A DNA stretch of 64,000 nucleotides, taken from the NCBI RefSeq assembly GCF_022655595.1, contig NZ_CP093379.1:1484501-1548500 (forward strand). Direction: 5' to 3'. The stretch is from Ignatzschineria rhizosphaerae (GTDB lineage: Bacteria; Pseudomonadota; Gammaproteobacteria; Cardiobacteriales; Wohlfahrtiimonadaceae). Under the pieces are notes generated by a model. It worked only from the letters and a program-made list of their open reading frames with translations, made no database searches and was not told where the DNA came from. Positions 13,863 to 43,179 of the stretch are shown piece by piece; position 1 is the stretch's first letter; each line of letters starts with the position of its first letter. Position numbers and translations under genes: made by a program.

Positions 13863-14582
13863 ATGAAATTTAATCCCCCTTTGCAGCAAGGTAAGCTCAT
13901 TAAGCGTTATCGCCGGTTTCTCACCGATATTGAAACAACAACGGGGGAGACAATGACCATTCATTGCCCGAATACGGGTTCGATGCTAAATTGCCTACTC
14001 CCAGAGAGTGATCTTTGGTATGAAGCCTCACAATATCCTCATCGAAAAACAAAAGGAACTTGGGTAATTGCAACTACACCTTTTGTGCGCCTTGCAAATG
14101 TGAATACACATTTAGCTAATCGCCTTATTGAAGAAGCGCTTGAAAATGGAACGATCAATCTAGGCTTGCCTTATAACAAACTACAAAGAGAAGTAAAATA
14201 TGGTAATGAAAATTCCCGTATTGATATCCGTCTTACCCATTTAACACCCGATAGTGAAAGCTTTACTTATATTGAAGTGAAAAGCGTCACACTCGGATTT
14301 AAAGATTCCGATATTGCAGCTTTTCCAGATGCTGTCACGACTCGCGGCACAAAACATCTTCGAGAGCTTACAGAGCTTGCTAAAAATGGTACTAACGCCG
14401 TTCTTATTTACTGCGTTAACCTTGAAGGAATTACAGGCGTTCGTCCTGCTGATGAAATTGATGCTGAATATGGCAAGGCCCTAAGAGTCGCTGCAAAAAA
14501 TGGTGTCAAAATCCTAGCTTTTGCAACATCCATTACGCCGAATGAAATTAAAATCACCCACGAAATTCCGGTACTTTTATAA
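13863..14582 (+). CDS. sfsA: SfsA-family DNA/RNA-binding nuclease-fold protein
   Basis: The 239-residue protein matches SfsA across its length: FNPPLQQGKLIKRYRRFL at the N-terminus, HCPNTGSMLNCL, the nuclease-like TYIEVKSVTLG and FPDAVTTRGTKHLREL. In E. coli SfsA was linked to maltose gene expression and binds DNA. The fold is that of a restriction-endonuclease-like domain, but the role is poorly settled. It lies 65 bp after dnaE and is closed by the hairpin at 14596-14630, which is shared with the oppositely directed sRNA. Confidence 0.92.
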   Translation: MKFNPPLQQGKLIKRYRRFLTDIETTTGETMTIHCPNTGSMLNCLLPESDLWYEASQYPHRKTKGTWVIATTPFVRLANVNTHLANRLIEEALENGTINLGLPYNKLQREVKYGNENSRIDIRLTHLTPDSESFTYIEVKSVTLGFKDSDIAAFPDAVTTRGTKHLRELTELAKNGTNAVLIYCVNLEGITGVRPADEIDAEYGKALRVAAKNGVKILAFATSITPNEIKITHEIPVLL

Positions 14583-14594
14583 ATTTTAGACACA

Positions 14595-14775
14595 AAAAAG
14601 CCAGCATCGCTCCATACTTTGCTGGCTTTTCCACGATAATCCCTTATCGTTTTTGGTCTTCATGCCCGAGCTTCCCTATCTTCGAGTATCCTACTCTTTC
14701 CTGTAAAGGCGTTCCCTTCCTAACCTCCTGTACAAGATTTCCTTGCTATGTGTATCCCTACTACATCCATGTGAA
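14595..14775 (-). ncRNA. CsrB/RsmY-type CsrA-sequestering small RNA (candidate)
   Basis: On the minus strand between tusA and sfsA there are 12 GGA triplets in about 160 bases (seen as TCC at 14611, 14630, 14640, 14673, 14689, 14699, 14713, 14718, 14726, 14740, 14755 and 14766). Several sit in exact hairpin loops: ACGATAA-GGGA-TTATCGT, GAGTA-GGA-TACTC and GTA-GGGA-TAC. One site, ACATGGATGT, is nearly the CsrA consensus ACARGGAUGU. The RNA ends in a strong terminator with six T. A -10-like TATTTA at 14781-14786 puts the 5' end near 14775, giving about 180 nt. GGA-loop arrays with a terminator are the hallmark of RNAs that titrate CsrA/RsmA. There is no plausible coding frame. The exact 5' end is inferred. 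Confidence 0.82.
14596..14630. terminator. Bidirectional Rho-independent terminator, sfsA and sRNA
   Basis: AAAAGCCAGCA and TGCTGGCTTTT form an 11-bp stem around a 13-base loop. On the plus strand four T follow, closing sfsA. On the minus strand a run of six T follows the stem, making it the better terminator for the GGA-rich RNA. Confidence 0.85.
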
Positions 14776-14851
14776 TCTGTTAAATAATAGCTCGTTCTAT
14801 AAAACAAAGGTGAAGAATATAAGATCTCTATAAGTTAGCTGTCTTCTCACT

Positions 14852-14869
14852 ATAAACTATAGTTTATAA
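14852..14869. promoter_or_regulatory. 18-bp perfect palindrome upstream of the sRNA
   Basis: TATAAACTATAGTTTATA is a perfect palindrome about 77-94 bases upstream of the inferred sRNA start. Its architecture (6-bp half-sites around a 6-bp centre with AT in the middle) matches the GacA/UvrY box form TGTAAG-N6-CTTACA, with 8 of 12 half-site bases equal. It could instead serve tusA. The function is inferred. Confidence 0.45.
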
Positions 14870-14938: not shown

Positions 14939-15166
14939 TTAATTTTTTACGATCGTGATCGCCCATGCAGCGTCCCCAATCTGCTCATAATTTGTAACTT
15001 CATGCCCAGCCTCTGCGGCCCATCTTGGGATTGCCTCTGTTCCTTGTGTGCAATCAAACTCTATCTTTAAAGCATCACCTACTTCTAAAGTTGCCATCTT
15101 CTCTTTTGCTTCAATAAGCGGGAAAGGACAAACTAACCCCAAAGACTTTAATTCATAAACTGCCAT
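14939..15166 (-). CDS. tusA: TusA-family sulfurtransferase
   Basis: The 75-residue protein has the TusA/SirA fold signature GLVCPFPLIEAK, with the persulfide-carrying Cys13 followed by Pro-Phe-Pro. It would accept and pass on sulfane sulfur in the cytosol. It lies downstream of a YeeE/YedE transporter on the same strand. That pairing is common and points to uptake of thiosulfate-type sulfur and relay to TusA, rather than to the tRNA-thiolation TusA of E. coli. It could therefore be the YeeD-like paralogue. Confidence 0.85.
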   Translation of the reverse strand: MAVYELKSLGLVCPFPLIEAKEKMATLEVGDALKIEFDCTQGTEAIPRWAAEAGHEVTNYEQIGDAAWAITIVKN

Positions 15167-41339: not shown

Positions 41340-42178
41340 TTACGTCTCCCCCCTGGCATCGCCATTATGATGATAATTAAGAGACCGGCAATTAAGTTAA
41401 AATCATAACTCTTTAAATTTAAAAACTCTGCATGTAGCGCTAAACTTGTCACAATACGGTAGATAATGGAACCGACAATACAGCTCAGTAACTTAATCCA
41501 GATAGATCTAAAGGGAAGCACTCTCTCACCAATAATCACGGCGGCAAACCCCGCGATAATGGTACCAATACCTGCTGAGATATCTGTAAATCCTTGTTGC
41601 TGACTAAAGAGTGCACCGCCCATTGCGATAAGCGCATTCCCCATCGCAACTCCTAAAATCACCATCCATTTAACATTCACACCACCATTCATGCAAAGAC
41701 GCTTATTTTGCCCAACAGCGCGAATTGAGAGTCCGATATCTGTATTGAGTAAAAAACTAAATGCCGCAATCAAAATCACAGTAATCGCGCCTAACACTAT
41801 AAGGTTATTAGTCACAAAAATAGTAGGTGACATTAAAAGAGAGATATTAGGAGTTCCTTGCATCACATGCAGGTTAATGGAGTAGAGCATAAAAGCCACT
41901 AAAATGCCGGCTAAAAGATCTGTCACTTTAAAAAAGCTATTTAAAATCCCTGTTAATGCACCGGCAAGCGCTCCCCCAATAAGCGCGAAGATCAGCGATA
42001 AAAAAGGATCTACGCCAGCTTTGATTAAAATAGAAGAGATGGCAGCCCCTAAAACGAAGCTGCCATCACAGGTTAAATCTGGAAAGTCGATAATTCTAAA
42101 TGTGAGGTAGATCCCCATACCAACAATTCCATAAATGAGCCCGAGTTCCAGGCTCATTACTAATTCACTTAAACTCAT
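41333..42178 (-). CDS. TrpXYZ-type ABC importer, permease subunit
   Basis: The 281-residue permease of the branched-chain amino-acid/sugar permease fold has about eight hydrophobic segments and the conserved DFPDLTCDGSFVLGAAISS near residue 31. It starts 8 bp after the binding-protein gene. Its stop overlaps the ATPase start, as expected for a co-translated importer. Confidence 0.88.
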   Translation of the reverse strand: MSLSELVMSLELGLIYGIVGMGIYLTFRIIDFPDLTCDGSFVLGAAISSILIKAGVDPFLSLIFALIGGALAGALTGILNSFFKVTDLLAGILVAFMLYSINLHVMQGTPNISLLMSPTIFVTNNLIVLGAITVILIAAFSFLLNTDIGLSIRAVGQNKRLCMNGGVNVKWMVILGVAMGNALIAMGGALFSQQQGFTDISAGIGTIIAGFAAVIIGERVLPFRSIWIKLLSCIVGSIIYRIVTSLALHAEFLNLKSYDFNLIAGLLIIIIMAMPGGRRKC

Positions 42179-42186
42179 CCTAACCC

Positions 42187-43179
42187 TTAATCTTTCTGAA
42201 CCGCTTCTGCCTTACCATCCTTAATAAAGACAGCAGCTTCCTCGATCACCTCATTTGGAAGGGTTAATCCGAGTTTATTGGCGGTATCCATGTTAATAAC
42301 GAGCTCCATTTTATCAGGAAAACCAACAGGGATCGCGTTAATATCTTCACCGTTCAAAATACGTGCAATCATCTCTGCCGTATCAATGCCTAATTGATAT
42401 TGATTAGGGCCTAACGCTGCAAGCGGACCAAACTCTACCGCATCGGTATCTGCGACAAATACTGGTTTTTTCTCTTTTGTAGCAGCCGTTACAATACTCT
42501 CTAATGCTGCAAGGGCTGTATTATCACCATAGATAAAAATTGCATCTGTTTGGTTTGCAAGGCGTGTTGCTGCTTGTGGTACGTCAGCTGTGCGATTAAC
42601 GGATTGAGTCACAACTTCTAAACCAAAGTTTGGCGCAGCTTTTTCTAGATCTTTAAGTTGAGTGATAGAGTTTGCATCACCGGGGTTATAGATAAAGCCA
42701 ATTTTCTTAAGCTCTGGTAAAACCTTTTTGAACATCTCAAGCTGCGGCGAAACATCTACATAGTTCGACATTCCTGTCACGTTCGTATTCGAACCTTCAA
42801 GAGATTTTACTAAGCTTGCGCCCATAGGATCTGTGATAGAACTAAAGACCATCTTTGTTTTGCCTTCCATCGCCGCTTTCACTAAGCTTTGCGCTGAAGG
42901 TGTACCAATACCAACGGTAACATCGGCATTTTGTGCCACAAATTTTGTGGAAATTTGCGCGGCTAATGCGACGTTAGCTTGTGCTGATTCCACCACAAAA
43001 TCAAGGTTCTCCCCTTCTACAAATCCGCGATCTTTAAGCCCATCACGAATCCCTTTTGCAGTCATATCAAGTGCCGGGTGCTCTACGATCTGATTGATAT
43101 AAACTTTTTTAACATCTGCCGCGAGCGATACGCTACTTGCAAGCGCTGCACTTAATACTACTGCTAATAACTTTTTCAT
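42187..43179 (-). CDS. TrpXYZ-type ABC importer, periplasmic binding protein
   Basis: The 330-residue protein has a Sec signal peptide (MKKLLAVVLSAALASSVSLA, cleavage near 20) and a PF04392/TrpX-type binding domain: VYINQIVEHPALD, DTVGIGTPSAQ-like VTVGIGTPSAQSLVKA and YNPGDANS. It is the first gene of the importer operon, with AGGAG five bases before its ATG, and a near-palindromic operator overlaps its promoter. A TrpR-superfamily gene lies nearby, so an aromatic amino acid such as tryptophan is the likely ligand. Confidence 0.87.
   Translation of the reverse strand: MKKLLAVVLSAALASSVSLAADVKKVYINQIVEHPALDMTAKGIRDGLKDRGFVEGENLDFVVESAQANVALAAQISTKFVAQNADVTVGIGTPSAQSLVKAAMEGKTKMVFSSITDPMGASLVKSLEGSNTNVTGMSNYVDVSPQLEMFKKVLPELKKIGFIYNPGDANSITQLKDLEKAAPNFGLEVVTQSVNRTADVPQAATRLANQTDAIFIYGDNTALAALESIVTAATKEKKPVFVADTDAVEFGPLAALGPNQYQLGIDTAEMIARILNGEDINAIPVGFPDKMELVINMDTANKLGLTLPNEVIEEAAVFIKDGKAEAVQKD

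Follow-up and report, generated by a model that had tools for sequence, protein, structure and literature searches.

Introduction

CsrB and CsrC of Escherichia coli are controlled by UvrY, and the consensus obtained for CsrA by SELEX is RUACARGGAUGU. For these two RNAs the available text of PMC11882849 gives 22 and 14 GGA motifs respectively, and it describes sequence conservation among Csr RNAs as usually absent. Single-stranded GGA is named as a strong predictor of RsmA-binding RNAs in the accessible portion of PMC5568370, which also predicts that RNAs derived from 3′ untranslated regions bind RsmA in Vibrio fischeri. Vibrio csrB copies appear, from the parts of PMC6262261 at hand, to have been duplicated and relocated, in one case with independence from VarA. 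In Pseudomonas aeruginosa, RsmV and RsmW are presented in the available sections of PMC7366521 as Gac-independent and seemingly specific to that species. According to the accessible text of PMC4950607, RsmW carries seven GGA motifs, three of them on outer stem loops, and lies behind the 224-bp PA4570; no terminator was predicted after PA4570 and GacA does not activate the RNA.

Here we describe a candidate Csr/Rsm-type small RNA of Ignatzschineria rhizosphaerae, which lies between tusA and sfsA within a stretch of 64,000 nucleotides (the window). A literature search found no paper that pairs CsrB with Ignatzschineria. The closest described counterpart is RsmW, as far as the accessible account of that RNA goes. 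Both are GGA hairpin RNAs behind a small open reading frame with no terminator predicted between, both seemingly belong to a single species, and neither seems to be activated by GacA. They differ in that the candidate follows tusA rather than PA4570, has 12 GGA motifs rather than seven, and is known from sequence only. CsrB and CsrC of E. coli are similar to it as multi-GGA RNAs with the CsrA-sponge role proposed for the candidate, present more than once per genome in the text available, and differ from it in their control by UvrY and in that the candidate has no Rfam match at the gathering threshold.

Results

Anatomy of the candidate RNA

The candidate occupies approximately 14594–14781 of the minus strand, where 12 GGA motifs are followed by a terminator. 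Both ends are approximate, the 5′ end having been inferred from a -10-like TATTAT at 14789–14784. All 12 of the GGA motifs within 181 nt of this strand are concentrated in about 160 nt. The top-scoring of them lies in the near-consensus CsrA site ACATGGATGT (14763–14772, minus strand), which agrees with six of the nine flanking positions of the SELEX consensus. In the minimum free energy (MFE) structure, a 5′ hairpin with a single bulge, TGTAGTAGGGATACACA (14749–14765, minus strand), places GGGA in its loop. Two further hairpins on this strand, recovered both in the MFE fold and in a count of hairpins, are GAGTA-GGA-TACTC (14684–14696), with GGA as its loop, and ACGATAA-GGGA-TTATCGT (14633–14650), with GGGA as its loop. 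The RNA ends in an intrinsic terminator (14594–14630, minus strand) identified by terminator search, which comprises an 11-bp stem, a 13-nt loop holding one GGA, and a T6 tract of which the first four T pair within the foot of the stem. With its 13-nt loop this terminator is overlooked by a standard scan, in which the loop limit is 8. Counting the terminator loop and the bulged 5′ hairpin, four hairpins of the candidate carry GGA in the loop. The MFE structure leaves six of the 12 GGA motifs fully unpaired and the other half at least partly paired. The 12 GGA motifs, the hairpin stems, the near-consensus site and the six-T terminator reported in the initial annotation are all in the sequence; the stems ACGATAA/TTATCGT, GAGTA/TACTC and GTA/TAC enclose GGGA, GGA and GGGA respectively.

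Upstream on the same strand lies tusA (14939–15166, minus strand; PF01206, E 4.5e-17), and the convergent neighbour is sfsA (13863–14582, plus strand; PF03749 and PF17746). As the RNA stops short of the end of sfsA, it is not antisense to that gene. The candidate interval holds no convincing coding frame, its frames being short or broken.

GGA density, hairpins and fold against chance

The 12 GGA motifs per 160 nt at the candidate are the maximum for the window, in which the runner-up has eight. They are also the highest value in a 464-kb genome sample consisting of the window and 20 stretches of 20 kb, every other place in the sample reaching at most nine. Two tandem Csr RNAs described below fall outside this sample and reach 11 per 160 nt. 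When the candidate was shuffled with its dinucleotides preserved, 12 of 2000 shuffles had at least 12 GGA motifs and the mean was 7.1, such that G/A-rich composition explains much of the density, and not all of it.

GGA-loop hairpins were counted where an unbroken stem of at least 5 encloses a loop of 3–7, a definition that excludes the bulged 5′ hairpin. Three are found in the candidate against a shuffle mean of 0.41, and 12 of 3000 shuffles had at least as many. Of these three hairpins, one is an alternative structure in competition with the terminator stem, and when the terminator part is left aside the remaining two were equalled in 65 of 3000. The same shuffle test on six accepted relatives gave between 0 and 859 of 3000; here, as in the alignment and upstream comparisons, the CsrB-type RNA of sister genome G002, which is 95% identical to that of G006, was omitted. 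Folded with its terminator, the candidate has a z-score of -4.1 and none of 200 shuffles is as stable. Without the terminator the z-score is -1.9, 10 of 200 shuffles are as stable, and the fold is only mildly unusual.

Other GGA-rich places were also inspected. One at 42055–42300 of the window was rejected, as by eye it reads as coding sequence of an ABC transporter. Three within another stretch of the same genome (L299) gave no Rfam match, and the one that was read looks like a repetitive open frame of some length; the open reading frame mask of the 464-kb scan required closed ends, and the 'noncoding' labels of this stretch are unreliable. Separately, a Vibrio penaeicida contig contains, near position 1978 on the minus strand, a 160-nt stretch with 11 GGA motifs.

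CsrA is present and GacA/UvrY is not recognised

The initial annotation had named a CsrA homologue in the genome as a check on its reading, and one is found. The single csrA match (G000:C1:1768876–1769025) scores 89.6 bits against a curated cut-off of 73, and its product can be aligned with solved CsrA/RsmA chains. With its anatomy and one CsrA gene in the genome, the candidate is a plausible Csr/Rsm-type RNA, and its earlier description as a CsrB/RsmY-type RNA is partly supported.

Control by GacA/UvrY, which had been proposed alongside, is unsupported. Four proteins with a LuxR-type helix-turn-helix (HTH) were found in the genome. NarL is the best-scoring assignment for three of them (222, 220 and 100 bits; cut-off 250) and TtrR for the fourth (216 bits; cut-off 290), and the best score of any of them as UvrY/GacA is 124 bits against a cut-off of 280. 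None of 21 genomes (this one, eight of the genus, four of the family and eight of the order) passes the UvrY/GacA cut-off of NF007018, which is passed by one of 14 control genomes, presumably E. coli. The best UvrY-like match within the order (G018:C14:41780–42430) reaches 197.7 bits, lies below the cut-off and is broken by a stop codon.

A tandem pair of CsrB-type RNAs at another locus

Two CsrB-type RNAs are encoded in tandem on the plus strand at G000:C1:435731–435962 and 436078–436320, with 11 and 14 GGA motifs, CAAGGATG/AGGATGA repeats and a strong terminator each. The route to them led through a CsrB-like RNA in a locus of sister genome G006, situated about 480 nt from a palindrome site and flanked by an upstream frame with a molybdopterin dinucleotide binding domain and by a convergent DUF498 gene, the latter of which was then tracked through the relatives. 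A covariance model of this RNA type, R1, recognises eight copies, with scores from 117 to 217 bits: two in this genome, two in G007, and a single one in each of G001, G002, G006 and G008. The model was built from six of the eight, and those of G002 and G008 are independent finds. RNAs of the tandem type are thereby present in this genome and, at the same locus, in five of eight sister genomes. In G008, only the upstream one of the two flanking genes is on the contig of the RNA; by eye, the sequence of that locus also suggests a short degenerate extra copy. R1 found nothing beyond noise in G003, G004 and G005 (best E 0.027 to 0.075). Repeats that contain GGCATC...GATGCC and motifs resembling GCGGGCATGCAG are found at the corresponding locus of these three genomes.

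Rfam models recognise these RNAs at scores below gathering or fail to recognise them. The CsrB model gives 24.9 and 23.8 bits on the two G007 copies (gathering 71) and 21.9 bits on the G006 copy, and PrrB_RsmZ gives 25.7 bits on the second copy of the tandem pair (gathering 44) and 18.7 on that of G008. At E up to 1, no model of the Csr clan matches the first copy of the pair or the G001 copy. An upstream element, GTAAGTYATTGAAAA, is common to both members of the pair, to one G007 copy and to the G008 copy, and is partial at the other G007 copy; none was seen upstream of the G001, G002 and G006 copies, nor in the window. At one G007 copy the first letters of GTAAGTYATTGAAAA form an inverted repeat with a downstream AATGACTTACA.

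Judged by sequence, the tandem CsrB-type RNAs are more canonical by far than the candidate, and together with the sister copies they suggest a working Csr RNA system in this organism. The designation of the candidate as the Csr RNA of the organism was consequently wrong, given two canonical CsrB-type RNAs in tandem elsewhere. The candidate resembles them in its GGA-loop hairpins, its terminator and its presumed partner CsrA. They differ from it in their CAAGGATG/AGGATGA repeats and shared locus and, in the pair of this genome, in CsrA-like flanks and the upstream element, all of which the candidate lacks.

This difference in the flanks is apparent when they are scored against the CsrA consensus. 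The flanks of the candidate's GGA motifs have a mean of 3.33 versus a window background of 3.19, and 2039 of 5000 random draws are as good; the tandem pair has means of 4.27 and 4.29, equalled by 30 and 5 of 5000 draws. Two accepted relatives, the G007 copies G007_T1 and G007_T2, are also at background (1385 and 772 of 5000), so the flank test is not decisive. An A at position -2 of GGA is somewhat more frequent in the candidate, at seven of its 12 sites, than across the window, at 439 of 1256 (one-sided P 0.08).

Homologues and conservation of the locus

No Rfam family matches the window at its gathering threshold, and at that level the initial statement that the RNA is not homologous in primary sequence to the named families holds. 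The sole sub-gathering match of the Csr clan to the candidate is RsmY (RF00195), at 19.2 bits versus a gathering value of 57. RsmY and the candidate are alike in size, in GGA hairpins and in a terminal hairpin, with a weak alignment over the full length; the differences are a score far below gathering and a genome in which no GacA is recognised. The RsmY score was rejected as evidence: at E up to 10 the model gives matches in 39 of 40 genomes and in 13 of 14 controls, none over the cut-off. Its best match in this genome, at 25.3 bits, is a terminator-like hairpin within a gene which we take to be pth-like. R1 gives the candidate 8.8 bits (E 0.39), the second of 15 noise-level matches in the window.

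A blastn search with 265 nt found no match in eight genomes of the genus or nine of the family. Matches in three of 56 other genomes (G038, G049 and G032; E 0.001 to 0.006) were rejected as homologues; that in G038 extends over 31 nt at 87% and overlaps the beginning of a frame that presumably encodes a homoserine dehydrogenase-like protein, and the other two measure 26 and 20 nt. A covariance model built from the single candidate sequence, R2, was run on 19 genomes. It recovered the candidate itself, a match in G008 (23.4 bits, with a rough E of 6e-4), one at 759 kb of the same genome (17.6 bits) and one in G007 (12.6 bits). Apart from the candidate these were judged spurious, being by eye mainly terminator-like hairpins with at most seven GGA motifs per 160 nt, and those in G008 and at 759 kb overlap open reading frames. 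Given its low E-value, rejection of the G008 match is a matter of judgement. No match to the candidate was obtained in plasmids, phages gave two 39-nt matches at E 0.07, and viral contigs contain no exact 36-nt match.

SfsA is present in 20 of the 56 other genomes. TusA is 88–91% identical in four genomes (G005, G007, G011 and G013) and 72–80% identical in six more of the family. Judged from coordinates, G005 is the only genome in which tusA and sfsA directly adjoin, some of the assemblies being in many contigs, and the gap between them there contains by eye a compact terminator-like hairpin without a GGA cluster. In G007 (contig C4), about 2 kb separate tusA from sfsA and hold an ABC-transporter-like gene set, presumably an amino-acid-type transporter consisting of a binding-protein remnant, a permease and an ATPase. 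The initial annotation had stated in advance that GGA loops missing from relatives would count against its reading, and at this locus the loops are not conserved. The candidate thus appears to be an orphan among the sequences searched. Lack of conservation removes the strongest kind of support for it. Species-specific sponges such as RsmV and RsmW exist, so non-conservation does not by itself refute function.

Promoter and transcription unit

The best sigma-70-like promoter match upstream of the candidate is AAGACA-18-TATATT (14816–14845, minus strand), which agrees at nine of 12 positions and is a consensus match only. Four such matches lie near the candidate against 2.2 expected from shuffles, and the TATTAT used to place the 5′ end is a weaker match to consensus. 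Terminator search detected none in the gap between tusA and the candidate, and the tusA transcript may thus extend to 14594 with the RNA as its 3′ end, whether cut or not. A perfect 18-bp palindrome, TATAAACTATAGTTTATA (14851–14868), is located upstream of the RNA, about 80 nt from its inferred start. Its arms and spacer are as long as those of a GacA box, and it has eight of the 12 arm letters of TGTAAGN6CTTACA; as a GacA-like box it is unremarkable, since 26 of 100 shuffled versions of the window contain the degenerate pattern. Genome-wide scanning of 19 genomes gave no clear excess of GacA-like palindromes, with 12 versus 8 for the reversed control in this genome, and none of 20 palindrome sites taken as 1-kb stretches is at a GGA cluster above seven per 160 nt. 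Promoter evidence for the candidate is weak.

Discussion

Our analysis leads us to lean towards an interpretation of the candidate as a divergent, species-specific and Gac-independent third Csr/Rsm sponge, for which transcription and CsrA binding are inferred. The minus strand downstream of tusA would yield an RNA some 185 nt long, which either starts at a promoter of its own or makes up the 3′ end of the transcript of tusA. Its GGA triplets, several of them in short hairpin loops, would bind CsrA dimers and draw them off mRNAs, and the RNA would in this way act as a third CsrA sponge alongside the two tandem CsrB-type RNAs. As no GacA/UvrY is recognised, the input to the candidate would be something else, possibly whatever drives tusA. 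From transcription through CsrA binding and titration to the input signal, these are steps that we infer.

The sponge interpretation has to be weighed against a simpler one, in which the candidate is merely the 3′ untranslated region of tusA with its terminator, a hairpin that would also serve sfsA on the opposite strand, its purine richness being accidental and without any role in the Csr system. This would agree with the absence of any terminator found from tusA to 14594, and with a G/A-rich composition that by itself yields seven GGA motifs on average. GGA flanks at background, a fold that is unremarkable once the terminator is removed and the lack of conservation point the same way. What it accounts for poorly is that both the number of GGA motifs and the number of GGA-loop hairpins exceed what shuffling at equal composition usually gives (as many in 12 of 2000 and in 12 of 3000), and that the tusA–sfsA gap of G005 reads by eye as a hairpin of terminator type in which GGA does not cluster. 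We regard the chance origin as a serious alternative, though less likely than the sponge.

Descent from the tandem CsrB-type RNAs, of which the candidate would be a decayed duplicate, appears improbable. Its GGA richness and terminator are as such a duplicate might retain, and csrB genes do duplicate and relocate in Vibrio, in the text available of PMC6262261. An alignment of 24 positions between the upstream regions of the candidate and the second tandem RNA is beaten by only one of 300 shuffles; this short, AT-rich match came out best among six comparisons, of which the other five are beaten by 12 to 215 of 300. The RNA bodies align barely above shuffles (24 of 300 for tandem RNA T1, 222 of 300 for T2, and 28 to 82 for four relatives), the R1 score is at noise level, and the window lacks the upstream element seen with the tandem RNAs. 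That the candidate instead encodes a short leader or a small protein is very improbable: the frame of about 25 codons available for this starts from an ATG within the RNA and runs into and through the terminator, thereby crossing the hairpin, and the remaining frames are broken.

Extended to the genus, a third-sponge interpretation of the candidate leads to a broader proposal that we consider unlikely on present evidence and put forward only tentatively. A genus without GacA/UvrY might operate a Gac-independent circuit of tandem RNAs, several of them behind GTAAGTYATTGAAAA, to which newborn species-specific sponges are added, with the candidate linking CsrA activity to the transcription of tusA.

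If the candidate does bind CsrA, it would be another sponge born beside an unrelated gene in one species, like RsmW, and in a lineage in which the usual switch, GacA/UvrY, is not recognised. The tandem CsrB-type RNAs weigh more than the candidate in this respect, as they make Csr RNA control without GacA directly testable.
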